The translations under genes and the position numbers were made by a program. From Gemmatimonadaceae bacterium (lineage in GTDB: Bacteria > Gemmatimonadota > Gemmatimonadetes > Gemmatimonadales > Gemmatimonadaceae), in the NCBI GenBank assembly GCA_019752115.1, contig JAIEMN010000019.1, forward strand, positions 124,001-188,000: DNA of 64,000 bases, in the 5' to 3' direction. Of this stretch, positions 11,113 to 64,000 are shown in pieces (position 1 is the stretch's first letter; each line of letters begins with the position of its first letter). The notes below the pieces were generated by a model. That model did not search any database. It saw nothing but the letters and a program-made list of their open reading frames with translations, and was not told where the DNA came from.

Positions 11113-12360
11113 ATGTCCCGCCCCATCGTTCGCGCGGCCCTTGCCGCCGGCGTGCTGCTCCTCGCGCCCCTTGCCGATGCCCTCGCTCAAGCCAAGGGGA
11201 ACGTCATCCCCGGCATTGAAGTGCTGCTCACCGACTCGCTGCACCTGATCAAGGGCAAGCGCGTGGGGCTGCTCACCAACCATTCGGGGCGAGATCGGAA
11301 AGGCACCAGCACCATCGATCTGCTGTTCAACGCGCCTGGCGTGAAGCTCACCGCGCTCTATGGCCCCGAGCATGGCATTCGCGGCGAGGCGAAGGCCGGC
11401 GAAAAGGTATCGAGTGGGACCGACGCGAAAACCGGGGTGAAGGTGTACTCGCTGTACGGCGATGTCGAGTCGCCCACGCCGGACATGATGAAGGACATCG
11501 ACGTGCTGCTCTACGACATCCAGGATGTCGGCGCGCGCGTCTATACCTACCAGTGGACGCTCGCGCTGACTGCGGCGAGCGCCAAGAAGCCGATCATCAT
11601 TCTCGATCGACCGGATCCAATTCGCGCCGACCGCATCGAGGGGAACATCCTCGATCTCAAGTTCCGCTCACTCGTGGGGCAGCATGCCGTCGCGCTGCGC
11701 TATGGGCTCACCGTCGGTGAGCTCATGAAATACCTCGTGGGCACCAAGGCGATCGATGCCCAGGTGACGGTGGTCCCCATGAAGAACTACCGCCGGGCGA
11801 TGTGGTACGATGAGACCGGCATGCCGCGCGTGAATCCGAGCCCCAATCTGCGCACGCTCGACGCCGAGCTCCTCTACCCGGGCACGGTGTTTTTCGAGGG
11901 GACGAACGCCACCGAAGGACGTGGCACCGATGCCCCCTTCCAGCTGATCGGCGCCGACTACCTCACCGACCACGTCGCGGTGGCGAAGGGACTCAACGAT
12001 CTCAAGCTCCCCGGTGTGCGTTTCGATACGGCGACGCGCACCATCGAAGCGGGCTACAAGTTCGGCGGCAAGACGATTCCCATGATCAAGGTGTCGGTCA
12101 CCGACCGCAATGCGGTGCGCTCGGTGGAGCTGGGCATTCGCATGCTGCGCGCCTTCCGCGCCGCGCATCCGAAGGAGTTCGCCTGGCGTGAGCCGAGCGT
12201 GAATGCCGCCGGCCGCATCAAGGGGATCGATCGCCTGGCGGGGACCGATGCCCTCACCAAGGCGGTCGATGAGGGCACCGTCGATGCGCTCATCAAGCAG
12301 TGGGACGCCGATGCGGCCAGGTTCGCGCAGCTTGTGAAGCCATACCTGCTGTATCGGTGA
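11113..12360 (+). CDS. secreted DUF1343 protein, exo-beta-N-acetylmuramidase (NamZ-like)
   Basis: A 415-residue DUF1343/GH171-type protein with a clear signal peptide (AALAAGVLLLAPLADALAQA, cleavage after about residue 25). Family segments: KRVGLLTNHSGRD, ALYGPEHGIRGE, VYSLYGDVESPT, LLYDIQDVGARVYTYQW, ILDRPDPIRADRIEG, YPGTVFFEGTNATEGRGTD. It is the divergent paralogue of the gene at 9804-11033, with the same motif order, so the pair probably arose by inverted duplication or was selected as a secreted/intracellular pair for muropeptide use. The gene ends before a strong bidirectional hairpin at 12464-12496. Exported location follows from the signal peptide; activity is by family. Confidence 0.88.
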   Translation: MSRPIVRAALAAGVLLLAPLADALAQAKGNVIPGIEVLLTDSLHLIKGKRVGLLTNHSGRDRKGTSTIDLLFNAPGVKLTALYGPEHGIRGEAKAGEKVSSGTDAKTGVKVYSLYGDVESPTPDMMKDIDVLLYDIQDVGARVYTYQWTLALTAASAKKPIIILDRPDPIRADRIEGNILDLKFRSLVGQHAVALRYGLTVGELMKYLVGTKAIDAQVTVVPMKNYRRAMWYDETGMPRVNPSPNLRTLDAELLYPGTVFFEGTNATEGRGTDAPFQLIGADYLTDHVAVAKGLNDLKLPGVRFDTATRTIEAGYKFGGKTIPMIKVSVTDRNAVRSVELGIRMLRAFRAAHPKEFAWREPSVNAAGRIKGIDRLAGTDALTKAVDEGTVDALIKQWDADAARFAQLVKPYLLYR

Positions 12361-12463
12361 GCGCTCGACCGGCCCTCGAGCGGCACTCGCACGGGGGTGC
12401 GTGTCACTGATATGGCATATCAGGGGCCAGGTGGGAGGGTTGAGGGGGAAGTGGGATGCGGAA

Positions 12464-12496
12464 AGGGGGCGACGGCGCTTTGCGCCGTCGCCCCCT
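12464..12496. terminator. bidirectional hairpin terminator between convergent genes
   Basis: A perfect 15-bp stem (12464-12478 with 12482-12496) closes a TTT loop. It is very GC-rich, flanked by an A-rich start and a short T-containing tail, and stands between the DUF1343 gene and the convergent TonB receptor gene. The 100 bases before it (12361-12463) hold no gene I can support. Confidence 0.75.
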
Positions 12497-12595
12497 CGCC
12501 GTTTCACCTCCCCCTGACTGCTCCCCCCTGGCTCCTCAACTGCGGGAGCCGTGACGGGCAGCTGCCGGCGGTGTGCTGGATCGCTGGTCGAGCGA

Positions 12596-15391
12596 TCAGA
12601 AGTCGAACCTCAAACCCACCTGCCCCATGCGGGCGCCGAAGACGGCGGTCGGCTTGCCGAACGTGGCCACCGGCGCACCGGCCGTCGTGAACTGCGTGCC
12701 GCCGTACGACAGGTTGTTGCGCCAGTTGAACACGTTGAACGCTTCGGCCGAGAGGCTGACCGTGCGGCCGCTCACCTTGTACAGCGGGCGCGCGATGCGC
12801 ATGTCCACCGTGCGGTACCAGAACGGCCACGAGTTCGGCGGCAGCGTCGTGCGGTTGCCGGTCGACGTGGGCGTGCTCCCCGGGAAGTCATCGTTGAACA
12901 CGTTGTTCAGGTTGAGATCGCGCCCGTCGACCGTCACGAAGGGACGCGGGCTCGCAATCGTCGCCACCGAGGAGAACGTGAAGCCGAACGGGATCTGCAC
13001 GATGTCCGAAAGCACGAAGCGGTGCCGTTCGTCGCCGGTGGTCCGCTGGCGATTGAAGAGGAAGTTGTACGTGAAGGTCGGCAGGGCCGCCGTGTCGAAG
13101 TCGCCCTGATACCAGCCGAGCGTATAGGCAAAGTTCACCCGGTTGCGCTTGCGCTGGTACGTCGCCTGGACGAGCACCGAGGAGTAGTCCGACTGGCCGA
13201 TGTCATCCCAGATCAGGATGTCGCCATAGTTGGCCGTCAGCTTGCGACGGGACGGCGTCACAGTGCGATCGACGTAGTTCGGATTGCGCTGCACATAGAG
13301 GTTGTCCATGTGCTGGCGGACGTAGTCGATATTGAAGCCGAACGACTCGGTGAGCTGATGACCGACACCGATCGACATCTGCTTCGAGTGCGGCGTCTTC
13401 ATGTCGAGGTTCATCAGGATCGGCGCCGGCGAGCCCGACGCGCCGGAGATGACCCGCTGGCGCAGGACGGCCGGATCGGTCGTACCCGGGTTCACGAAGT
13501 TGTAGGTACGCCAGGTCGAATTGCGACGCTCCTGGAAGCCCATGAAGCTCGTGACGCGGTCGTAGATGATACCGAAGCCACCACGCACGAACGTCTTGTT
13601 GTCCTTGAACGGATCCCACGAGAAGGACACCCGCGGCGAGAAGTTGCCGAGCTGGTTCTTGCGGTTGCCGGCGTTCAGGTAGCCCTGGAGCTCCGGAATC
13701 CCCTGCAACACCGGATCCTTCGACCACGGCGTCACGTAGTCGTTGTTCATGGTGTTGAGCTCGGCATCGTGCCGCAGACCGAGCGACAGCGTGAAGTTCG
13801 GCTTGATGCGCCACTCGTCATTGATGTAGATGCCGGTGGTATAGCCGGTCGCGCTGGCGATCGCGTCGCTGGTGCCGTTCGGATCATTGAAGCCCACGGC
13901 GATCGAGGCCGAGTTGGGCAGCGTGGACGTGTCGGAGGGGAAGTTGAAGGTGCCGTTCGTGTTGTTCGGCTGGTTCTGCTGCGCGGCGATCGTCGACAGC
14001 TCGACGCCGGCCTTCACGATGTGCGACCCGGCCTTCTCCACGTTCCACGTCGCCCGGTTGACGAAGCGGAAGTGGTTCTCCTTGAGGATGAGCGGGAAGC
14101 CCGCGGTCCCGAAGATGACGCCGGGATAGCTGCGCTGCGGACCCGGCAACAGCGGCGCTTCGTTGTGATTCCAGCTCACCAGCTGCAGGCTCGCTTCGTT
14201 CACGAAGTTGCCGCTCTTGGCGAGATACCGCTGACGAAGCTGCGCCGTGTAGATCTCGTACTTCTGCGAGATGCCGCCATCCTGCGTGACGCGGCCACCG
14301 AAGTTGCCTTCGCCGCGCAGGAAGCGCGCGGACCCCATGAAGTCGTACGTGATCGTGGGGCTCGCCACATACGTCAGGCGCGAGAACGCCGTGTGATTCT
14401 TGTTCGGCGCCAGGAACGACCCGCGAAGCGAGGCCCAGTTGGCGCCGCTGGTGGGATTCACATCGAGATAGAAGTCGGTGTCCGTCAACTCATAACTGGT
14501 CGCCAGGAACAGCTTATCCTTCTTGAGCGGACCGGCAATGTTGAAGCCGAGCTGCGACCGACCGAAGTTCGGCACGGTGGTCTGAAAGGCATTCTGCGCC
14601 AGCATGCTCTTGTTCTGGTAGAAGCCGAAGCCCGACCCCTTCCACTGGTTCGTGCCGCGCTTCGATTCCGCGCTGATCACGTACGAGCCCGCTCGCGTGA
14701 ACTCCGCATCGTACGGATTCAGGTACACGCGGAAGTTCTCCAGCCCCTCCTGCGGCAGCGGTGAGCCGGTCTGCCCGAGGCCCACAATGTTGCCGTTGAA
14801 GAGGCTCTTCATTTCGACACCGTCCATGTAGACGTTGAAGAAACGGAGATCCGGTGCCGCACCGCCCGAGGGGAGGGTGCGCCCCGACTGCGGCTGGTAC
14901 GTTTTGATGCCGGGCGCGATACCGGCCAGATTCATGATGCCGCGCGAGTTGAACGGAAGATTCTCGATTTCTTCCTTCACGACCGGCGCGGACACGGACA
15001 TGCGCTGCACTTCCACCTGCTTCACGCGATCGGCGGTGACCGTCTGCGCATCGAGCTCGGCGGCGCCCTTCTCGAGTTCAAACTCGAGACGCGCCCGCTG
15101 GCCCAGCACGAGTTGCACGGTATCTGTGCGCTGCCGGTAGCCGAGCGCCTTCACATTGACGGTGAACTGCCCGGAGTAGAGGCCGAGCACCCGGAATTCA
15201 CCGGTCGGGCGCGTCAGCACCCGATGGACTTCGTCGGTCGCCACGTTGCGAACCGTGATCTGCGCGCCGGCAACCGGGCTGCCATCGGCGCGAACCGCGC
15301 CTTCAAGTGTGATGGAGTTCTGGGCGAGCGCCGAACTGGCGGCGAGCACCGAGGCGGACGCCGCGAGGAGCAACCGTGTTACCGGTCGCAT
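12596..15391 (-). CDS. TonB-dependent outer membrane receptor with carboxypeptidase regulatory-like domain (Oar-like)
   Basis: About 931 residues. The leader MRPVTRLLLAASASVLAASSALAQ is a clear signal peptide. Residues about 26-110 form a carboxypeptidase-regulatory-like beta-sandwich (VRADGSPVAGAQITVRN), followed by a plug domain and a long beta-barrel ending in the aromatic outer-membrane signature VGLRFDF. This architecture is the Oar-like/SusC-like family that imports large ligands with TonB-ExbBD energy. ATG 15391 is chosen from two adjacent ATGs because AGGAAGG lies six bases upstream; the open frame further upstream is a shadow. A -10-like TATACT lies about 60 bases before the start. 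The ligand is not evident; the neighbouring amino-acid and peptide genes make peptides a reasonable guess only. Confidence 0.88.
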   Translation of the reverse strand: MRPVTRLLLAASASVLAASSALAQNSITLEGAVRADGSPVAGAQITVRNVATDEVHRVLTRPTGEFRVLGLYSGQFTVNVKALGYRQRTDTVQLVLGQRARLEFELEKGAAELDAQTVTADRVKQVEVQRMSVSAPVVKEEIENLPFNSRGIMNLAGIAPGIKTYQPQSGRTLPSGGAAPDLRFFNVYMDGVEMKSLFNGNIVGLGQTGSPLPQEGLENFRVYLNPYDAEFTRAGSYVISAESKRGTNQWKGSGFGFYQNKSMLAQNAFQTTVPNFGRSQLGFNIAGPLKKDKLFLATSYELTDTDFYLDVNPTSGANWASLRGSFLAPNKNHTAFSRLTYVASPTITYDFMGSARFLRGEGNFGGRVTQDGGISQKYEIYTAQLRQRYLAKSGNFVNEASLQLVSWNHNEAPLLPGPQRSYPGVIFGTAGFPLILKENHFRFVNRATWNVEKAGSHIVKAGVELSTIAAQQNQPNNTNGTFNFPSDTSTLPNSASIAVGFNDPNGTSDAIASATGYTTGIYINDEWRIKPNFTLSLGLRHDAELNTMNNDYVTPWSKDPVLQGIPELQGYLNAGNRKNQLGNFSPRVSFSWDPFKDNKTFVRGGFGIIYDRVTSFMGFQERRNSTWRTYNFVNPGTTDPAVLRQRVISGASGSPAPILMNLDMKTPHSKQMSIGVGHQLTESFGFNIDYVRQHMDNLYVQRNPNYVDRTVTPSRRKLTANYGDILIWDDIGQSDYSSVLVQATYQRKRNRVNFAYTLGWYQGDFDTAALPTFTYNFLFNRQRTTGDERHRFVLSDIVQIPFGFTFSSVATIASPRPFVTVDGRDLNLNNVFNDDFPGSTPTSTGNRTTLPPNSWPFWYRTVDMRIARPLYKVSGRTVSLSAEAFNVFNWRNNLSYGGTQFTTAGAPVATFGKPTAVFGARMGQVGLRFDF

Positions 15392-54918: not shown

Positions 54919-56112
54919 ATGAGTCTTTTCACCGACCTGCAGGACGAACTCGACGCGCTCAAGGCGGCCGGCACCTACAAGCGCCTCAACTATCTCGAAG
55001 GGCCGCAGGGGGCACGCGTCCGCATGGAAGGGCGCGGCGAGGTCATCGTCCTCTCCTCCAACAACTACCTCGGCCTGTCGAACGAGCCGAGTGTGGTGCA
55101 GGCGGGCATCGATGCTCTGCACCAGTTCGGCGCCGGGACGGCGAGTGTCCGGTTCATCTGCGGCACCTTCACCGTACACCGCGAGCTCGAGGCCGCGCTC
55201 GCGCGCTTCGTCGGCACCGAAGCCAGCATGAGTTATGTGTCGGCGTGGAACGCCAACGAAGCGCTGACTGCCACCATCGTGCGCGAAGGCGATTTCGCCA
55301 TTTCCGACGCACTCAACCACGCCTCGATCATCGATTCGATCCGCCTCGCCAAGGCGATCACCAAGTGCACGACGGCGGTCTACAAGCACGCCGACCTCGA
55401 CGATCTCCGCGAAAAGCTCCGGGCCAACAAAGACGCCAAGCGGAAGCTCATCTGGACCGATGGCGTCTTTTCGATGGAAGGGGCGATCGCCAAGCTCCCC
55501 GACATCGTGCAGATCGCCCGCGAGGAAGGGGCGATCGTGGTCATGGACGACTCCCACGCCACCGGCGTGCTGGGCAAGACGGGGCGCGGGACCGCCGAGC
55601 ATTTCAACATGATCGGCGAGGTGGACATCATCACCTCGACCCTCGGCAAGGCACTCGGCGGCGCCGCCGGTGGATTCATCGCCGGCCCGGCGTCGCTCTG
55701 CGACATCATGACGCAGCGCTCGCGCCCGCAGCTCTTTTCCAACGCCCTGCCGCCGACGGTCGCGGCGAGTGCGCTCCAGTCGGTGCGCTACACGGAAGCG
55801 CACCCGGAGCTGGTGACGCGGCTCCACGAGAACGCCCGCTATTTCCGCGCGGCGATCCAGGAGGCGGGGTTCCATCCGCTCCCGGGTGAAACGCCGATCG
55901 TCCCGATCATCGTCGGCGAGACGGCGCTGGCGATCCGTATGAGCGACCTGCTCCTCGAGCGCGGCGTGTTCGTGACGGGCTTCGGCTTCCCGGTCGTCCC
56001 GCAGGGCCAGGCGCGCGTGCGCTGTCAGGTCAGTGCGGCGCACACGAAGGAGGACTTGGACGCGGTGGTCTCCGCGTTCAAGTCGGCGGGCAAGGTCGCC
56101 GGGCTGCTGTAA
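54919..56112 (+). CDS. kbl: glycine C-acetyltransferase (2-amino-3-ketobutyrate CoA ligase)
   Basis: A 397-residue fold-type I PLP enzyme of the alpha-oxoamine synthase group. Family segments: NNYLGLSNEPSV, RFICGTFTVHRELE, LNHASIIDSIRLAKA, VFSMEGAIAKLPDIV, MDDSHATGVLGKTGRGT and the PLP lysine in TSTLGKALGGAAGGF (about K244). With Tdh it forms the threonine-to-glycine pathway: Kbl takes 2-amino-3-ketobutyrate plus CoA to glycine plus acetyl-CoA. Gap to tdh is 13 bases, so the two form an operon. A long hairpin begins on the base after the stop codon. Confidence 0.95.
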   Translation: MSLFTDLQDELDALKAAGTYKRLNYLEGPQGARVRMEGRGEVIVLSSNNYLGLSNEPSVVQAGIDALHQFGAGTASVRFICGTFTVHRELEAALARFVGTEASMSYVSAWNANEALTATIVREGDFAISDALNHASIIDSIRLAKAITKCTTAVYKHADLDDLREKLRANKDAKRKLIWTDGVFSMEGAIAKLPDIVQIAREEGAIVVMDDSHATGVLGKTGRGTAEHFNMIGEVDIITSTLGKALGGAAGGFIAGPASLCDIMTQRSRPQLFSNALPPTVAASALQSVRYTEAHPELVTRLHENARYFRAAIQEAGFHPLPGETPIVPIIVGETALAIRMSDLLLERGVFVTGFGFPVVPQGQARVRCQVSAAHTKEDLDAVVSAFKSAGKVAGLL

Positions 56113-56223
56113 ACAGCATACACAGAGCGCATGGAGACTGAGGGGCGCACGGGGATTCTGGAGATACGGACCGATACCGTCCTCCTTCCCCTCTTCAGTC
56201 ACCGTGACCTCTGTGTGTGCTGT
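56113..56223 (+). repeat. long imperfect hairpin after kbl
   Basis: Outer arms ACAGCATACACAGAG (56113-56127) and CTCTGTGTGTGCTGT (56209-56223) pair fully but for one T-G. Inner stems GACTGA/TCAGTC, GGGG/CCCC, GGAG/CTCC and ACGG/CCGT continue it almost to the loop at about 56171. It starts one base after the kbl stop and separates it from the signalling operon. Confidence 0.75.
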
Positions 56224-56255
56224 GAGCGTTCGTCCAGATCGGCACCCAACACTAC

Positions 56256-56261
56256 TATATA
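56256..56261 (+). promoter_or_regulatory. possible -10 box of a leaderless transcript for the partner-switch operon
   Basis: TATATA is followed by GATGCA and then the ATG at 56268, six bases away, the same spacing seen at 7135 and 31674. The region between the hairpin at 56223 and this box would hold the promoter. Confidence 0.4.
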
Positions 56262-56267
56262 GATGCA

Positions 56268-56600
56268 ATGTCGTCGCTCCTCCTGCCGCTGATCCTGTTT
56301 TTGGGGTTCATCGGCTTCCGCATCGCCAGCATCATGGCGACGCGGAAGCGCGAGGCGCAGCTGCGCGCGGCATGGCGTGCGGAGGTCGAGGCGACGCGCG
56401 CGGCGTCCGCGCAGGCGGCACGCGCACTCCGTGAGCCGCTCGACGCGCTGCTCTCCGCCGCCGCGCGATTGCAGGCGAGCGGCGCGGAGCGGACGGCGGC
56501 GGAACGCGCCGAACTCGCGACGATCGCGGCGGCCGGGCAGCAGCTCACCACGCTCGTGGACGGGATGGTCGGCGCTCCCGCGACGGGTCCCACCGCGTGA
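56268..56600 (+). CDS. membrane-anchored DHp-like (HisKA-like) protein lacking the phospho-acceptor histidine
   Basis: A 110-residue protein with an N-terminal membrane helix (LLLPLILFLGFIGFRIA), a basic stretch and then two alanine-rich helices: ARALREPLDALLSAAARL (51-68) and ERAELATIAAAGQQLTTLVDGM (79-100). The pattern follows the HisKA dimerisation domain (S-H-E-L-R-T-P-L, then E..LxTIxxxGxxLxxLIDxxL) except that the histidine position is Arg52. The next gene, overlapping by GTGA, encodes a stand-alone HATPase, so the two together look like a split and catalytically altered sensor kinase. Family membership is my reading of the pattern, not certain. Confidence 0.6.
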   Translation: MSSLLLPLILFLGFIGFRIASIMATRKREAQLRAAWRAEVEATRAASAQAARALREPLDALLSAAARLQASGAERTAAERAELATIAAAGQQLTTLVDGMVGAPATGPTA

Positions 56601-57058
56601 GCGCGTCGGAGATGCACGTCTACGCCGCCGACCCGCTCACGCTCGAACAGCTGAGTGAGATCCGCACCTTTGTCCGGGATGCGTTGTCGGGATTGGGCTG
56701 CGACGCCGCCATCGAGCCCTGCACGCTCGCCGTGGACGAAGTCTGCGCCAATCTCGTGGAGCATACCGTCGGTCCATCGGCCGGACCCACCCGGGTGATG
56801 GTGCGTCGCGACGGTTTTGACGCCATAATCGTGGTGGAGGATCACGGCACGCCGTTCGATCCTGCCAACGCCCCGCCTCCCAACCTCTCCACCAACTGGG
56901 AAGAGCGCCCGATCGGCGGTCTCGGTTGGTTTTTCGTCAAGCAGCTGATGGACGGCGTGCACTACGCCTCCGCGCCAACGGCCACCGGTCAGGTCAATCG
57001 CCTGACGTTGACCAAGCGCGACGCGTGTCCGCCTCCCCCCGAATCGTCCCAAGCCTGA
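56597..57058 (+). CDS. RsbW/SpoIIAB-like HATPase, serine-kinase anti-sigma type
   Basis: A 153-residue GHKL ATPase. N box LAVDEVCANLVEHT (Glu and Asn for ATP-Mg), G1 box VVEDHGTPFDP and G2 region GGLGWFFVKQLMD are all present. Small stand-alone HATPases of this type (HATPase_c_2) phosphorylate a STAS antagonist on serine and bind a sigma factor or other partner. Start GTG 56597 overlaps the upstream stop; the STAS gene follows with a two-base gap. No sigma factor gene is nearby, so the controlled target may be another protein, possibly the patatin-like proteins encoded next. Confidence 0.82.
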   Translation: MSASEMHVYAADPLTLEQLSEIRTFVRDALSGLGCDAAIEPCTLAVDEVCANLVEHTVGPSAGPTRVMVRRDGFDAIIVVEDHGTPFDPANAPPPNLSTNWEERPIGGLGWFFVKQLMDGVHYASAPTATGQVNRLTLTKRDACPPPPESSQA

Positions 57059-57060
57059 CC

Positions 57061-57399
57061 ATGCAGATCGCCATCGACCAGCACGACCATGTCACGGTCG
57101 TCGCCGTGACCGGCAGTATTGACGCCCTGACCGCCGACACCCTCGTCACCGCCATGCGCGAGCAGCTCGAGTTGGGACGCACGCGCCTCATCGCCCACTT
57201 CGCCGGCGTGGAGTACACGAGTTCCGCCGGGCTGCGCGTCCTGCTCACCACGCTCAAGGACGCCCGCCAGCGAGGCGGCGACCTGCGACTCGCCGAAATT
57301 CGGCCGAACGTGAAGCAGGTGCTCGAGCTGTCGGGCTTCACCAGCATTCTCAAGTGCTTCGCCGACGTGCCGTCGGCGGTGGCGAGCTTCCCGGCGTGA
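57061..57399 (+). CDS. STAS-domain anti-sigma factor antagonist (SpoIIAA/RsbV-like)
   Basis: A 112-residue single-domain STAS protein. The core GSIDALTADTLVTAM and the conserved FAGVEYTSSAGLRVLLTTL are present; the serine in TSSAG is the residue normally phosphorylated by the HATPase partner. ATG 57061 follows the HATPase stop by two bases. In known partner switching the unphosphorylated STAS protein captures the kinase and frees its target. The patatin-like gene follows after seven bases. Confidence 0.85.
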   Translation: MQIAIDQHDHVTVVAVTGSIDALTADTLVTAMREQLELGRTRLIAHFAGVEYTSSAGLRVLLTTLKDARQRGGDLRLAEIRPNVKQVLELSGFTSILKCFADVPSAVASFPA

Positions 57400-57406
57400 G
57401 CCACCC

Positions 57407-58264
57407 GTGAGTCAGCCCGGCGTCGCGCTGGTGATCGGCTCAGGCGGTGTGAAGTGCGCCGCGTCGATCGGTCTGATGAAGTGCTTCCATGCCGAGGGCA
57501 TCCCCATCGAGCAGGTGGTGGGGTGCAGCGGCGGCGCCATCTACGCCGCCGCCATCGCGCTGGGCCATGATGCGGCCACCGTGCAGGCGCTCACGACGGA
57601 ATTGTGGACGCGCGAGGTCACCTCGCAACCCGACCGCCGGGCGCTGCTGAGCATGGTGTTCCCCAAGCTCTTCGGCTTCGACGGCCGCTTCGGCCTCAAG
57701 CAGGATCGCATCGTCAATGAACGGCTGGCCACGGCCTTCGGCGACGCGACCTTTGCCGACTGCAAGATCCCGCTGCACATCACCGCCACCGATTTCCGCA
57801 CCGGCGAGCAGGTCACGATTTCCGAGGGGCGCATTCGCGACGCCGTGCGAGCCAGTATCGCGATTCCCTTCGCCTTTGCGCCGTGGGAGATCGATGGCCG
57901 CCTGCTCGTTGACGGGTTCCTGTCGGATCCGCTGCCGGTGGGCGTCGCCATTCGGGAAGGGGGACACGTGATCGTGGCGATGGGCTTCGAAAGCCCTAAT
58001 CAGGAGCGGATCACGTCGGGCGGGCGCTTCGCGTTCCAGCTGAGCAGCATCATGACCAACAACCTGCTGCGTGCCTCCTTTGCCTTTCACGGCCTGGCGC
58101 ACCACAGCGAGGTCATCGCGGTCATTCCGCAGTTCTCCGAGCGGATTCGCCTGTTCGACACGGCCAAGATTCCGCTCCTCGTGCGCGAAGGCGAAGCGGC
58201 GATGCGCGAGCAGCTTCCGTATCTCCGCCGCTTGCTGGCGGCGGTTCCCGCCACCGGCGCGTAA
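57407..58264 (+). CDS. patatin-like phospholipase, copy 1
   Basis: A 285-residue patatin-fold lipid acyl hydrolase without signal peptide. Oxyanion-hole glycine run GSGGVKCAASIGLMK, nucleophile elbow GCSGGAIY (Ser41) and the catalytic Asp169 in LLVDGFLSD; the family usually has DGG or DGA here, so DGF is a small deviation. Start GTG 57407. The next gene is a close relative with the same motif spacing, so the pair arose by tandem duplication. Being in one operon with HATPase and STAS proteins suggests the lipase activity or partner is under phospho-control. Confidence 0.87.
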   Translation: MSQPGVALVIGSGGVKCAASIGLMKCFHAEGIPIEQVVGCSGGAIYAAAIALGHDAATVQALTTELWTREVTSQPDRRALLSMVFPKLFGFDGRFGLKQDRIVNERLATAFGDATFADCKIPLHITATDFRTGEQVTISEGRIRDAVRASIAIPFAFAPWEIDGRLLVDGFLSDPLPVGVAIREGGHVIVAMGFESPNQERITSGGRFAFQLSSIMTNNLLRASFAFHGLAHHSEVIAVIPQFSERIRLFDTAKIPLLVREGEAAMREQLPYLRRLLAAVPATGA

Positions 58265-58269
58265 TCCCT

Positions 58270-59184
58270 ATGGAACGGCGCGCCCGCATCGGCCTGGTGA
58301 TCGGCTCCGGCGGCATCAAGTGCGCCATGGCCATCGGCCTGCTCAAGGTGCTCGCGCGCGAAGGGATTCCGGTGGACGTCGCCGTGGGGTGCAGCGGCGG
58401 CTCGATCTACGCCGAGCTCTATGCCCTCGGCGACGATGTGGACGTGATGGAAGAGCAGTCGCAGTATCTCTGGCGCGACCTCTTCACCAAGCTCCACTAC
58501 CGCTCGATCGTGCGCACGGTGGCGCCGGCGCTCTTCGGCTATCACGAACAGGTCGGCATCATCGACGATCGTCGCGTCTGGAAGACGCTCGAAGCCGCCT
58601 TCGGCACCCGCACGTTCGCCGATTGCCGCTATCCGTTCTTCGTTGCGGCGACCGATTACCGGACCGGCGAGAAGGTGACCCTGAGTGAGGGGCGGCTGCT
58701 CGACGCCGTCCGCGCGAGTATCGCAATTCCGCTGCTGCTTCGCCCGTGGCCCGTGCAGGATCGACTGCTGGTGGACGGCGGTGCCTCGAACCCGCTGCCG
58801 GTGGACGTGGCGATCCGCGAAGGGTGCGATCTCATCCTGGCCATGGGCTTTGAAAGCCAGATGACCGCGGACGTTTCCAGCCTGACCGAAGCGGTGGGGC
58901 GTACCTCCACCATCGTCACCAATCACCTGCTCCGCGCCACCTTCGCGTTCTACAGCGCCGCGCATCACGCCGAAGTGCTCCCCATCGTGCCGCTGCTCGA
59001 TCGCGAGGTGGGGCTCACCGACTGGCAGGAGATTCCCTATCTCATCGCGCAGGGCGAGAAGGCGGCGTACGAGCATGTGCCGTACTTGCGACGGCTGCTC
59101 GAGTCGGAAGGGATCGAGCCGACCTTCGGGGGATCGACGCAGCATGCCATTCCGACGGATCTGCCGCGCATTCAGCCGGGGTGA
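58270..59184 (+). CDS. patatin-like phospholipase, copy 2
   Basis: A 304-residue patatin-like protein: GSGGIKCAMAIGLLK (oxyanion hole), GCSGGSIY (Ser42) and LLVDGGASN (Asp169). Length, motif spacing and surrounding residues (FADCRYPFFVAATDYRTGEKVTLSEGRLLDAVRASIAIP) are close to copy 1, so both are functional-looking paralogues; copy 2 has a longer C-terminal tail (about 25 residues) rich in Gly, Thr and Pro. Start ATG 58270 is five bases after copy 1's stop. Last gene of the operon. Confidence 0.88.
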   Translation: MERRARIGLVIGSGGIKCAMAIGLLKVLAREGIPVDVAVGCSGGSIYAELYALGDDVDVMEEQSQYLWRDLFTKLHYRSIVRTVAPALFGYHEQVGIIDDRRVWKTLEAAFGTRTFADCRYPFFVAATDYRTGEKVTLSEGRLLDAVRASIAIPLLLRPWPVQDRLLVDGGASNPLPVDVAIREGCDLILAMGFESQMTADVSSLTEAVGRTSTIVTNHLLRATFAFYSAAHHAEVLPIVPLLDREVGLTDWQEIPYLIAQGEKAAYEHVPYLRRLLESEGIEPTFGGSTQHAIPTDLPRIQPG

Positions 59185-59291
59185 GGTGGGCGCCTGCGGT
59201 TCTCGGTTCTTAGCCGCCTTTGCCGTAAGGTTTCCGCCCCCCCGCGCCATACAGAATGTCCGCCCTCCCCCGCTCTCGAATGGAGCCACCA

Positions 59292-60389
59292 ATGCGCCGC
59301 CTGTTCGTTTCGCTGCTCGCGCTGACCGTCGCCGCCCTGCCGGTGCGCGCGCAAACGCTTCGTGTTGCCGGCACGCCATCGCTGCGCCTCGGCGCCTCCG
59401 ACGAGCAGAGCGGCCTCTTCAACGCCATCGCCGGCGCCACGCGGTTGCCCACTGGGCAGATCGTGGTCGGCAACCGCGGCGACTACGCGCTGCTCGTGTT
59501 CGATGCGAAGGGCGCCCTCGTCAGGAAGGCCGCGCGCAAGGGCAAAGGCCCCGGGGAGATCGACTACCTGCTGTGGCTCAAGCGCTGCGGCACGCAGCTC
59601 TTTACCGGCGACATCGAAGCGAATCGCGTGCTCGTCTTCAACCCCGATTTCACAGTCGCGCGCAGCTTTCGCTTTGCCGACCAGACGTATCGCCTGGCGT
59701 GCAACGCCGCCGGGCAGTTCGTGCACATGGGGTGGGAGCCCAGCAGCGCCTTCAAGCAAGGCGTCTTTCGCGCCGACACGAAGTTCTGGATCACCGGTGC
59801 CAACGGCGACGCGGGGATCTCGCTGGGTATGCTACCGGGCTCCGAACGCTTCGGCACCACCACCGCCGACGGACGTCCCACGGGCACGGGGCCGCTGGTG
59901 CTGGGACGTGAGACGCGACTCGCGATCGGCAGTCAGGCCGCCTACGTCGCCACCGCCGACAGCCTGACGCTGCTGGCCTTCGCGCTCGATGGTGCGCGGC
60001 GACCCGCCCTGCGCGCGCCGTATGTGCCCGTGCCGAGCACCGAGGCCGACGTGGACGCCGAGGTCGAGCGGCAGGTCGCCGCCCTTGGCGAGGCCGCGCG
60101 CAAGCGCACGGCGGAGGGGCTGCGCGCGATGCCACGCCCCAAGACGCTCCCGGCCACGCGTGACGTACTGGTGGATGCCGCCGATCTGGTGTGGGTGCAG
60201 GCGTATCCCAGCGCGAAGCAGGCGATGGTCGCCTGGACGGTGTTCCGCCCGAACGGCACCGTGGCGGCGCGGCTTTCGCTGCCGACGGCACTCGAAGTGT
60301 TCGAGATCGGGCGCGACTATCTGCTGGGACAGGTGCTCAACGCCGACACGGGCGTGCCGGAGATTCACCTCTATACCGTCACGCGATAG
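59292..60389 (+). CDS. exported 6-bladed beta-propeller (NHL-like) protein
   Basis: A 365-residue protein with a signal peptide (LFVSLLALTVAALPVRAQ) and propeller-type repeats: ATRLPTGQIVVGNRGDYALLVFD, ARKGKGPGEIDYLLWL (the GxGPGE hallmark), LFTGDIEANRVLVF, LVLGRETRLAIGSQAA and VWVQAYPSAKQAMVAW. It is a paralogue in layout of the protein at 40065. ATG 59292 has GGAG seven bases upstream. Its last 19 bases overlap the 3' end of the convergent mpg gene. No catalytic motif; likely a ligand- or partner-binding periplasmic protein. Confidence 0.75.
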   Translation: MRRLFVSLLALTVAALPVRAQTLRVAGTPSLRLGASDEQSGLFNAIAGATRLPTGQIVVGNRGDYALLVFDAKGALVRKAARKGKGPGEIDYLLWLKRCGTQLFTGDIEANRVLVFNPDFTVARSFRFADQTYRLACNAAGQFVHMGWEPSSAFKQGVFRADTKFWITGANGDAGISLGMLPGSERFGTTTADGRPTGTGPLVLGRETRLAIGSQAAYVATADSLTLLAFALDGARRPALRAPYVPVPSTEADVDAEVERQVAALGEAARKRTAEGLRAMPRPKTLPATRDVLVDAADLVWVQAYPSAKQAMVAWTVFRPNGTVAARLSLPTALEVFEIGRDYLLGQVLNADTGVPEIHLYTVTR

Positions 60390-60946
60390 CGCAGCGGCCA
60401 GTCCACCGCCTTGGAGATGCCGATGCGCGGGCCGATGACCACGCGTGCATCGGGTACGGGCTCGCCAGCGCGGATCGACAGCGCGGACGCCCCGGTGAGG
60501 GGTGCGCCATCGAAGTCGCGCGTGATGCCAAGGGCCGCGCACACCTTGCCCGGCCCATTGCACAGCTCCGCTTCGCGTCGGGCCTTCGGGCGCCGCGCGC
60601 GCATGTGTTCGATCCCTTCGAGCGGCTCGAGCGCGCGGATGAGCACCGCACTGCCGTACCCCTCTTCGCGGGTGACGGCATTCACGCACCAGTGCATGCC
60701 GTAGATGAAGTACACGTAGGCCGTCCCCGGCGGGCCGAACATGTGCCACGTTCGGGCCGTCCGCCCCACGGCCGAATGCGAGGCGGGGTCATGCGGACCC
60801 AGGTAGGCCTCGGTCTCGATGATCCGCCCGCTGACGACGACGGGGCCGTCCTCCATGCGGAGAACGGCCCCGAGCAGGTCCCGGGCCACCCGGTCCGGCT
60901 CGCGATCGTAGAACGCGGCCGGCAGGGGGGCGCCGTACGTCGTCAC
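60371..60946 (-). CDS. 3-methyladenine DNA glycosylase, Mpg/AAG family
   Basis: A 191-residue enzyme of the methylpurine-DNA glycosylase family. Signature segments: RDLLGAVLR, GRIIETEAYLGPHDPASHS (general base Glu in ETEAY), AYVYFIYGMHWCVNAVT (DNA-intercalating Tyr/Met region), and ELCNGPGKVCAALGITRDFDG with the conserved GPGKL-type strand. It excises alkylated or deaminated purines such as 3-methyladenine and hypoxanthine. GTG 60946 overlaps the stop of the NYN-LOTUS gene (GTGA), so its translation depends on that of the upstream gene. Convergent with the propeller gene. Confidence 0.93.
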   Translation of the reverse strand: MTTYGAPLPAAFYDREPDRVARDLLGAVLRMEDGPVVVSGRIIETEAYLGPHDPASHSAVGRTARTWHMFGPPGTAYVYFIYGMHWCVNAVTREEGYGSAVLIRALEPLEGIEHMRARRPKARREAELCNGPGKVCAALGITRDFDGAPLTGASALSIRAGEPVPDARVVIGPRIGISKAVDWPLRYRVTV

Positions 60947-62880
60947 CGCTTCTTGGCCGCCTTCTTGGCTGGGGCCTTGGCGGCCTTCGCCGGGGCCTTG
61001 GCCGCCTTCTTGGCCGGCGCGGCAGGGGCAGCCTTGGCCGCCGGCTTCTCGGCCTTGGCCGGGGCCTTGGCGGCCTTCTTGGCGGGCGCCTTGGCCGGAG
61101 CCTTGGCCGCCTTCTTGGCCTTGGCCGGAGCCGCCGCCGGAGCCGGGGTCTCGGCGGCCGCCGGAGTCGCCGGAGCCACCGCCTGAGGCGCCGGGGCAGC
61201 CGGCGCGGCCGGAGCCGCCCCGTTGGTCGCCACCGGCTTCGCGGCGCCCACCACGCCCACCATCAGCAACTCCGGCGGCGGACCCGCCGGCTTGCCACGC
61301 CCACCGATCCCGCGGGCACCCATCCCACGCGGGGCGGCCGGCAGCAACGCCTGCGCCGCCTTCTTCTCGGCGGCCTGCTGCTCATCGACCGCCTTGAGCT
61401 GCTCCACGATGCTCGCCGCATCTGCCGCGCGCGCAACTTCCCAGTCGTGTCCACGACGACGCAAATCGATCATGTTCGCATCATGCGCGTCCTGCAGGAT
61501 GCGCTCGAACATGCGCGACGCGAGCGACTCGCTGTCGCGGCCGAGCAGATCGAACGCCTTCTGCCGCACGGCGCTGGCCGTAGTCGCGTCTTCACCCGTG
61601 ACCAGCGCTTCGACGGCGCGGCGCACGAGATCGAACGCGTCGTTGCGCGTCAGACGCTCGCCACTGCGGCCAATGTCATCGGCCAACGGCTTGATGCCTT
61701 CCGGCTCGAGCTTGAGCGGCACATCCACCGGCGGTGCCGCCGGCGTCCGCGCGAGCACGGGGATCTCGACGGTCTCGTCAAGCGCACCCTCCGCGCCCTC
61801 CGCGGGGGCCAGCGAAGCGTCGCCCCCCTCCGCGCCCTCCGCGCCCTCCGCGCCCTCCGCGCCCTCGGCGCGATCACGGAAGCGGTCGCGACCACGCCCG
61901 CGACGCCCACGGCGCCCACGCCGGTCGTCGCGATCGCGCTCCGCGCGGGCGGTCTCCGCAGGAGCCGCCCCCTCCGCGCCACCAACCGACGGCGCGGCGC
62001 CAGCCGCGCCTTCCTTCGCCTCCGCGACACTCGTCGGCGTGCCGTCCGGCACGTCGACCTCGAGCTGGCCGCTTTCGAGCTTCGTCACCTTGAGCAGGCC
62101 GCGCTGCTGCGCCTCCTGCACGAAGCGCGAGAACTTCGGATGGCCGAGGTTCTTTTCGTCGAACGACGCGTCGATCTCCTGCATCACCTGCTTCAGGCGA
62201 TCGGAGCGCATCACGTCGCCGTTGCGCTTCATGCGCGCCACCGACTCCGTCACGAGCTCCCACGGATCCCAGCGCGTGGTTTCGTCTTCGCCGTTCTTCA
62301 CGAGGCCGGCGAGCGCGTTGTACGAGTAGTACTCGTCGCAATTCATGACGAGCAGGTCGCTCGACGACTCGCGGATGCCGACGCCGATCACGTACTTGCC
62401 GTACTCCTTGAGCTTGATGACCATGCTCGAGAAGTCGGAGTCGCCCGAGAGGAGCACGAACGTGCCGATCTCGGGGCGCGTGAAGACGAGTTCGAGGGCG
62501 TCGATCGCGAGACGGATGTCCGTCGCGTTCTTCTTCGACGAGCCGTAGGCCGGCGCGAAGATGAGATCGATGGACGCTTCGGTGAGGGGGACGATGTACT
62601 GCGGATAGCGGCGCCAGTCGGCATAGGCGCGGCGCACCGCGACCTTGCCCTTCACGATGTCCGACGAGAGGAGGTTCTTCAGCTCCTCCTGCAGGTCGGA
62701 GCGGATGCCCATCGTGACGTTGTCGAAATCGATGAGCAGCGCGGCATTCGGCGCGTGCGCCGGCGGCGCGACATTCGGCTGGGACACCGGCACCATCGGC
62801 TGCGCCGAGGGGCCACGGTGAAACGGGGCCACGGAACGGGCCGGCGACGAACCGCCTGACCGGGACTGATGACTTCTCAT
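60943..62880 (-). CDS. NYN-domain nuclease-like protein with two LOTUS (OST-HTH) domains and an H1-like tail
   Basis: A 645-residue protein. N-terminal low-complexity region, then a LabA/DUF88-type NYN domain (about 45-190): ALLIDFDNVT, ATDIRLAIDALEL and LLSGDSDFSSMV carry the acidic residues of the active site. First LOTUS domain about 200-280 (SDRLKQVMQEIDASFDEKNLGHPKFSRFVQEA), then an arginine-glycine-rich stretch (RRGRRGRRGRGR), five EGA repeats, a second LOTUS domain (about 435-505), and a C-terminal tail of AKKAAKAPAK units. NYN-LOTUS proteins are RNA-binding or RNA-cleaving; the lysine tail suggests nucleic-acid coating. ATG 62880 is used because upstream residues in the frame look like shadow. 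Coupled to mpg by GTGA. Confidence 0.82.
   Translation of the reverse strand: MRSHQSRSGGSSPARSVAPFHRGPSAQPMVPVSQPNVAPPAHAPNAALLIDFDNVTMGIRSDLQEELKNLLSSDIVKGKVAVRRAYADWRRYPQYIVPLTEASIDLIFAPAYGSSKKNATDIRLAIDALELVFTRPEIGTFVLLSGDSDFSSMVIKLKEYGKYVIGVGIRESSSDLLVMNCDEYYSYNALAGLVKNGEDETTRWDPWELVTESVARMKRNGDVMRSDRLKQVMQEIDASFDEKNLGHPKFSRFVQEAQQRGLLKVTKLESGQLEVDVPDGTPTSVAEAKEGAAGAAPSVGGAEGAAPAETARAERDRDDRRGRRGRRGRGRDRFRDRAEGAEGAEGAEGAEGGDASLAPAEGAEGALDETVEIPVLARTPAAPPVDVPLKLEPEGIKPLADDIGRSGERLTRNDAFDLVRRAVEALVTGEDATTASAVRQKAFDLLGRDSESLASRMFERILQDAHDANMIDLRRRGHDWEVARAADAASIVEQLKAVDEQQAAEKKAAQALLPAAPRGMGARGIGGRGKPAGPPPELLMVGVVGAAKPVATNGAAPAAPAAPAPQAVAPATPAAAETPAPAAAPAKAKKAAKAPAKAPAKKAAKAPAKAEKPAAKAAPAAPAKKAAKAPAKAAKAPAKKAAKKR
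61826..61870. repeat. five tandem 9-bp repeats inside the NYN-LOTUS gene
   Basis: Five copies of CCCTCCGCG on the plus strand (last copy one base different), encoding EGA tripeptides. A shorter set of related units lies at 61786-61805. Confidence 0.85.
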
Positions 62881-62942
62881 GAGGTACTGACCTGAAAACG
62901 AATCGGGGTGATCGAGCGCGCGCGCGTCAGACGCCCCTGGCC

Positions 62943-64000
62943 TCAAGCCAGGACGTGCAGCGTGTTCGCACTCAGCGCGATCGCGCGCGCGAGCTCTCGC
63001 CGCCTCACCTTGCCGCTCCCCGTCATGGGGAACGCATCGAAGAAGCGCACGAGGTCGGGAACCTTGTCGGCCGTCATCGTGTCCCGCGCGAATCGCTTGA
63101 TATCGTCGCCGGTGATGACAGCGCCCTCCACCGCCACGATGCACGCGCACACCAGCTCCCCCAACACATCGTGGGGGACGCCGATGACGCACACATCGTC
63201 CACTGCCGGGTGCGCCCGCAGGCGGTCTTCGAGCTCGCGCGGGTAGAGCTGGATGCCCCCGCGGGAGATCGTTTCCTGCCGACGACCCAGAATCCTCACG
63301 GTGCCGTCCTCGTCGATGATCCCAAGATCACCCGTGAGGAAGAACCCGTCCGACGTGTGGACCTTGGCGGTCTCCGTCGGCATGCGGAGGTAGCCCCGCA
63401 TGAGGTTGGACCCGCGCACGGCGATTTCGCCGACCGCTTCGGGTCCGTGCAACTGCCCCGTCATGAGATCCGCCGCCATCACTTCGACGCCCGGGAGCGG
63501 ACCGCCCACCGTTTCGCGACGCACCGCGTCGGAATCGGTCGGGCGCGTGATCGTGACCACGGCGCCGGTTTCGGTGAGGCCATACGCCACCAGCACGTCG
63601 CACCAGCGACGCACCTTGCGGACGAGCGCCTCGGCCACTGAGCTGCCAGCCATCAGGCCGGTGCGCAGCGACGTGAGACGCGACGGGTCGAACGCCTCCT
63701 CGCGCATGAGGAGGTGGTACTGCGTGGGCACGCCATGGAGCACCGTGACCCGCTCGGCGGCCATGAGCGCGAGCGCGCCGGCCGGATCGAAGGCAGGTTG
63801 CAGTACCAGCGCCGCGCCGGTCGCCATCGCCCCCAGCATCGCGCTGAAGCCAAAGGCCGCCGAAAACGGCACCGCCGTCAGAACGCGATCCTCGGAGCTG
63901 AGCCCCAGGACCGTGGCCGTTCGGACGGCGTTTTCCACCAGCGCACGATGCGAGAGCTGCACCCCTTTGGGTTTGCCCATCGTGCCCGATGTGTAGACGA
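62943..64000 (-). CDS. acyl-CoA synthetase (AMP-forming), 5' end outside window
   Basis: The frame runs off the right edge; the in-window ATG at 63980 is internal. The last complete motif at the edge, [12 protein letters not shown], is the P-loop of the adenylate-forming superfamily, followed by the [14 protein letters not shown] region, [41 protein letters not shown] (the GD and hinge segments) and a C-terminal swivel domain ending in KVRRRELAR, where the catalytic lysine of the family normally lies in GK[VIL].R. It makes acyl-CoA from a carboxylic acid, ATP and CoA; substrate unknown. Upstream of the NYN-LOTUS gene by 62 bases. Confidence 0.9.

Follow-up and report, generated by a model that had tools for sequence, protein, structure and literature searches.

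A compact operon links the RsbW and STAS proteins of a partner switch to two tandem patatin-type lipases in the window, the 64,000-nucleotide stretch of Gemmatimonadaceae DNA analysed here. This linkage is more than chance, because 16 further genomes in Gemmatimonadota and Acidobacteriota carry patatin 1 relatives in the same setting, often with 4-base start/stop overlaps. With a probability of roughly 0.4, we read the system as a histidine kinase-driven partner switch of two phyla in which STAS itself acts as the on/off regulator of the patatin, providing post-translational control of membrane lipids and occurring naturally in minimal STAS–patatin forms. The window copy is a stripped module, with the kinase reduced to a membrane stub, the phosphatase lost, and RsbW, STAS, patatin 1 and patatin 2 kept.

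Gene content of the operon

The operon occupies 56268–59184 on the plus strand, with every frame intact in the ORF calls and gaps of -4, +2, +7 and +5 between successive genes. The five plus-strand genes and their spacing, first described in a sequence-only reading of the window, are borne out by the ORF coordinates, and the start given there, 56256, is corrected to the gene 1 ATG at 56268. The genes and their flanks are as follows.

54919..56112, plus: kbl (glycine C-acetyltransferase), flanking the module site on the left
56113..56267, plus: intergenic stretch 3' of kbl at the left module edge, likely a leader or promoter by prediction
56268..56600, plus: gene 1, 110 aa, ATG start; membrane-anchored stub, remnant of the module kinase
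56597..57058, plus: RsbW, 153 aa, GTG start; RsbW/SpoIIAB-type serine kinase / anti-sigma-like HATPase
57061..57399, plus: STAS, 112 aa; antagonist with a putative phosphorylatable Ser in YTSSAGL
57407..58264, plus: patatin 1, 285 aa, GTG start; putative lipid acyl hydrolase, Ser41/Asp169
58270..59184, plus: patatin 2, 304 aa; putative lipid acyl hydrolase, Ser42 and the Asp of DGG
59256..60389, plus: predicted secreted beta-propeller protein, unrelated (PF17170 at 20.2 bits, under the cut-off)
60371..60946, minus: AAG-type DNA-3-methyladenine glycosylase, named from sequence; right flank of the module site
60943..63192, minus: NYN-like protein, with an N-terminal part well kept across the genus and a long, variable Ala/Lys/Pro-rich C-terminal tail

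The RsbW protein matches HATPase_c_2 (PF13581, 9.1e-21 in Pfam) and the RsbW of PDB 6m36 (4.3e-4), and its N (DEVCAN), G1 (EDHGTPFDP) and G2 (GGLGW) boxes are common to 10 module homologues. The adjoining STAS protein (STAS domain at 3e-20 in Pfam; TIGR00377 at 76 bits vs a cut-off of 53) shares 82–86% identity with its counterparts in sister genomes and carries the motif YTSSAG(L), with Ser54/Ser55, of which SSAG is unchanged in 12 homologues. Two defining components of partner switching, an RsbW-type HATPase with N, G1 and G2 boxes and a STAS protein with a predicted phospho-acceptor Ser, are both in place, and the PP2C and RsbW motifs look active.

Both lipases belong to the patatin family (PF01734; 8.4e-31 for patatin 1 and 6.9e-30 for patatin 2 in Pfam), with the GxSxG nucleophile, catalytic Asp and patatin fold all represented. 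Specifically, the nucleophiles Ser41 (patatin 1) and Ser42 (patatin 2) lie within GCSGG and the Asp within VDGF/VDGG; Ser41 and Asp169 are invariant among the 19 sequences aligned, and patatin 1, whose oxyanion loop is GSGGVK, departs from DG[GA] by reading DGF. The HATPase boxes, the STAS TSSAG and the patatin Ser and Asp residues that had been described as intact are thus all present. The AF2 model of patatin 1 (pLDDT 87.4) finds its nearest solved folds in PlpD and CapE/CapV, and patatin 2 matches PlpD at 2.3e-25. Inspection of the patatins by eye revealed neither a signal peptide nor a membrane anchor, and cytosolic action is assumed for that reason. In the tree, one clade holds all module patatins, and the duplication into patatin 1 and patatin 2 appears old because their split, inside this clade, also includes an Acidobacteriota pair. 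A sister patatin group at 35% identity occurs in two Acidobacteriota genomes (L102:9485-10372, L103:9543-10427) with no module gene near, and may serve as an outgroup for tracing the recruitment of the patatin.

Gene 1 is the remnant of the module histidine kinase, consisting of a TM helix and a DHp stub. In alignment with the complete sister kinases of G074 and G351, it covers their N-terminal membrane anchor plus the DHp and ends ahead of the HATPase domain, and its HisKA match remains under threshold (16.3 bits vs a Pfam cut-off of 26.9). The features that define a two-component histidine kinase are missing, in that the phospho-acceptor His is replaced by Arg (HELRTPLNAI of the sister kinases reads RALREPLDAL) and the HATPase_c domain is absent. 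The DHp core shares 33% identity with the sisters, at pN 0.41 and pS 0.50–0.59; between sister genomes, the DHp pN is 0.04. Its earlier description as a DHp-like membrane protein accordingly holds for the anchor and the DHp resemblance, not for a working DHp.

The full module and its losses

Proteins closely related to patatin 1 (E < 1e-80; 52–81% identity) occur in 9/395 phylum genomes, the window's own counted, in 1 additional family genome and in 7 Acidobacteriota genomes. Across this set of 17 genomes, which includes the window's own and the near-identical G351 and G366, every locus contains the patatin as a consequence of how the search was set up. RsbW is present in 15/17 loci, a PP2C adjoins the patatin in 15/17 (G401 counted across a contig break), and RsbW, STAS, patatin and REC-PP2C occur together in 14/17 genomes, with a histidine kinase (HK) in view in 13 of these 14. 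Representative REC-PP2C proteins match SpoIIE at 142–157 bits and Response_reg at 97–101 bits in Pfam. The gene orders, with PAT for patatin, are as follows.

G074, G144: HK, RsbW, STAS, PAT1, PAT2, REC-PP2C
G351, G366, G805: HK, single receiver, RsbW, STAS, PAT1, PAT2, REC-PP2C
G071, G363: receiver, RsbW, STAS, PAT, REC-PP2C, hybrid HK
G679, G593, G919, G920, G921: HK, receiver (4/5), RsbW, STAS, PAT, REC-PP2C
G238, G284: PAT-REC-PP2C convergent with RsbW-STAS on opposite strands; the G238 contig ends upstream, hence its HK is out of view
G401, reduced form without RsbW: HK, HK, receiver, STAS, PAT1, PAT2, with REC-PP2C right after PAT2 across the contig break
G498, reduced form: STAS-PAT alone

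The conservation of gene order beyond this strain, which the sequence-only reading had proposed as a check, thus extends to two phyla. The 4-base overlaps lie at the STAS–PAT, PAT–REC-PP2C and REC-PP2C–HK joints, varying by genome. No sigma factor was found among the neighbours called or scanned at the annotated loci, which extends to the relatives what had been noted for the window locus. Because 14 genomes share the gene set and no sigma factor occurs in the annotated loci, the recurrent module would run from histidine kinase to REC-PP2C, to STAS/RsbW and on to the patatin. In two loci, G284 (L070:4119-4913) and G238 (L069:11438-12235), RsbW and STAS share a single unbroken frame, possibly a natural kinase–substrate fusion; the G284 frame modelled without an alignment reached pLDDT 43 and the model was set aside. 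In G144 (L068:12839-19499), the module is directly followed by genes for Ser/Thr protein kinases that carry PD40 or TPR repeats, and the first of these genes shares 4 bases with that of REC-PP2C.

Within the genus, the module behaves as a cassette of patchy presence and fixed site. It is present in 4/30 genomes, always between kbl and the AAG-type glycosylase gene, and kbl adjoins the glycosylase gene directly in 7/7 module-less members examined. The left flank is kbl in G074, G351 and G366 as well, and the AAG-type gene is the right flank in relatives. A virus-borne origin was rejected, with 0/52 pattern matches in viral contigs encoding a relative, as was plasmid spread, the plasmid matches being generic patatins at 27–33% among the matches listed, none of which reaches 60%.

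At the window locus, no PP2C lies within the module and no trace of a REC-PP2C was found in the surrounding 12 kb; the beta-propeller gene sits where the sisters have REC-PP2C. An assembly artefact is an unlikely cause of the missing parts, since the locus is internal to a 324-kb contig, with gene 1 diverged rather than cut. Elsewhere in the window's genome, on contig C17, a PP2C with a degenerate receiver groups among the module PP2Cs (97/97 in the tree), and no such PP2C was found outside modules in G074, G351, G366, G019 or G039. This module-type PP2C may substitute in trans for the lost phosphatase, but its own RsbW–STAS pair, about 6 kb away, counts against such a role. At this C17 locus (G000, L074:4533-7300, 11389-12627), genes for an ECF-like sigma factor and a putative anti-sigma factor lie divergently to that second pair. 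A third switch set, with STAS, RsbW and a PP2C protein in a single run on contig C18 (L075:4489-6999), is not close to the module.

With its kinase gutted, its REC-PP2C lost and patatin 2 somewhat accelerated in the window lineage (dN ratio 1.62, 1.16–2.29), the window copy could be a decaying, functionless relic, a view that the absence of the module from 26/30 genus genomes also favours. We consider this very unlikely, in that four intact frames retain their catalytic residues and dN/dS for RsbW, STAS and both patatins is about 0.1–0.33, well under 1. Additionally, STAS and patatin 1 show no acceleration relative to sisters with full modules (dN ratios of 1.01 and 0.99) and are conserved as in those sisters, while the DHp core of gene 1 has diverged. 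RsbW has the lowest identity of the four kept genes (55–62% vs 71–86% for the other three). A strong RsbW acceleration, first estimated from identities, received no support from the codon-based bootstrap value of 1.44 (0.91–2.28), which is not significant.

Control of the patatins

The domain set implies a route from histidine kinase through REC-PP2C to STAS, countered by the kinase RsbW, as is established for these protein families. Beyond the observed gene content, conservation, motif integrity and losses, we infer the phosphotransfers, the STAS–patatin contact, the sign of its effect and the lipid substrate. In the full module, the membrane histidine kinase would phosphorylate REC-PP2C, directly or via the single-domain receiver, the PP2C domain would remove phosphate from STAS, and RsbW would phosphorylate STAS again. 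Unphosphorylated STAS would contact the patatin directly and alter its activity, on the model of SiaC with SiaD, and phosphorylation of STAS by RsbW would break this contact. In the window copy, STAS would be reset by a trans phosphatase, for which the C17 PP2C is the candidate, or would never be reset. As its output, the switch would control two patatin-type lipid hydrolases in the cytosol.

The view that the patatin is regulated directly by STAS and not by RsbW is tentative, and we give it slightly less than even odds, adjacency and co-inheritance being no proof of contact. STAS is favoured because STAS–patatin persists in the reduced variants G401, G498 and the window, because STAS and patatin 1 remain unaccelerated in the window lineage despite the loss of kinase and PP2C, and because antagonist–enzyme contact has precedents in SiaC–SiaD and HsbA–HsbD. 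Patatin distances also track STAS (r 0.756; partial correlation 0.60) more closely than RsbW (r 0.637; partial correlation 0.33), an argument weakened by the fact that the lower RsbW correlation may follow trivially from its faster evolution. In G238 and G284, STAS and RsbW lie on the strand opposite the patatin, which counts against a STAS–patatin pairing. An RsbW encoded elsewhere in the genome may serve the G401 and G498 modules, and G401 holds other HATPase_c_2 genes. As for the precedents, unphosphorylated SiaC directly activates the diguanylate cyclase SiaD, with a kinase and a phosphatase acting on SiaC (PMC8457831), and HsbA, an antagonist of the STAS type, when phosphorylated binds the cyclase HsbD, FlgM being a second HsbA target (PMC6482189), so that the sign differs even between precedents.

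The classical topology could instead apply to a new target, with RsbW binding and inhibiting the patatin until unphosphorylated STAS removes RsbW and frees the lipase. Relief of target inhibition by STAS is the standard RsbW role, and the wide presence of RsbW with intact kinase boxes and the lack of a sigma factor in the annotated loci speak for this arrangement; we nevertheless judge it unlikely, given that G401 and G498 retain STAS–patatin without an adjoining RsbW, and that RsbW, which has the lowest identity among the four genes retained, follows the patatin less than STAS does. Alternatively, the switch may act on a target encoded elsewhere, such as a sigma factor, leaving the patatins as passengers under shared regulation or as a branch of lipid signalling. 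The genome has other RsbW–STAS pairs, one of them beside an ECF-like sigma gene, so that a sigma-directed reading would not be out of place in this organism, but it is improbable for this module, whose full switch accompanies the patatin in 14/17 genomes of two phyla with translational coupling and without a sigma gene among the called neighbours.

Regulation of the patatin by STAS remains the preferred reading, and lipid hydrolysis is the best reading of its probable output, because the switch–patatin linkage is conserved and no sigma factor occurs in the annotated loci. The initial proposal that the released target is a lipase, or that lipid hydrolysis is the output, is upheld by the same two observations as regards the output, whereas gene content favours STAS over RsbW as the partner.

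Relation to known systems

Partner switches are known mostly as sigma-factor controls, and the only enzyme outputs that we know of are cyclases (SiaD, HsbD). The module has in common with SpoIIAB/SpoIIAA/SpoIIE, RsbW/RsbV/RsbU and Bordetella BtrW/V/U a HATPase_c_2 serine kinase and a STAS protein with a conserved Ser; their PP2C phosphatase is matched in the window's relatives, the window itself being without PP2C and kinase. Unlike these classical switches, it carries patatin genes in the operon, no sigma factor or secretion genes were seen, and its PP2C is a receiver fusion that pairs with a histidine kinase. The Pseudomonas SiaABCD system resembles it in having a kinase and a phosphatase act on a small protein with an enzyme output, SiaD there and a patatin here; to our knowledge, its phosphatase, unlike that of the module, has no REC fusion under a histidine kinase. 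The Pseudomonas HsbR–HsbA–HsbD system has in common a response regulator with PP2C, an anti-sigma-factor antagonist and an enzyme output (PMC6482189), but combines kinase, phosphatase and receiver in one protein and has no patatin.

In E. coli K-12, rssA–rssB (L105:1746-3756) resembles the module in that a patatin gene adjoins a receiver–PP2C gene; no STAS or RsbW occurs among the annotated neighbours. The PP2C of RssB is inactive, and RssB is an RpoS degradation adaptor (PMC10705548). Common descent with RssA–RssB is not supported, RssA lying far from the module patatins in the tree and the RssB PP2C branch being too long to place, and membership in the RssA equivalog was rejected (67.8 and 86.9 bits vs an NCBIfam cut-off of 272). 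PlpD and CapV/CapE have the fold and Ser–Asp dyad in common with the module patatins; PlpD is an exported fusion, and in CBASS cyclic nucleotides act as the switch for CapV/CapE. An assignment to anti-phage defence or CBASS was also rejected (PADLOC best 3.5e-8; CBASS_lipase 19.7 bits of 200 needed). The membrane-attack role once suggested for the operon finds no backing, as the PADLOC matches are weak and generic, no signal peptide was seen by eye, and neither a CD-NTase nor another defence partner was recognised among the neighbouring ORFs scanned.

No paper that connects patatins with partner switching or with STAS domains was found in the open-access literature, most subscription journals lying outside it; the parts are known, and their combination and conserved linkage appear undescribed. 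The natural reduction series, from full phosphorelay to bare STAS–patatin, makes it testable which protein touches the target. If the lipase output is true, partner switches would also govern membrane lipid hydrolysis, STAS and patatin would form a tractable minimal system, and the operon would point to a little-known way of turning an enzyme on and off.
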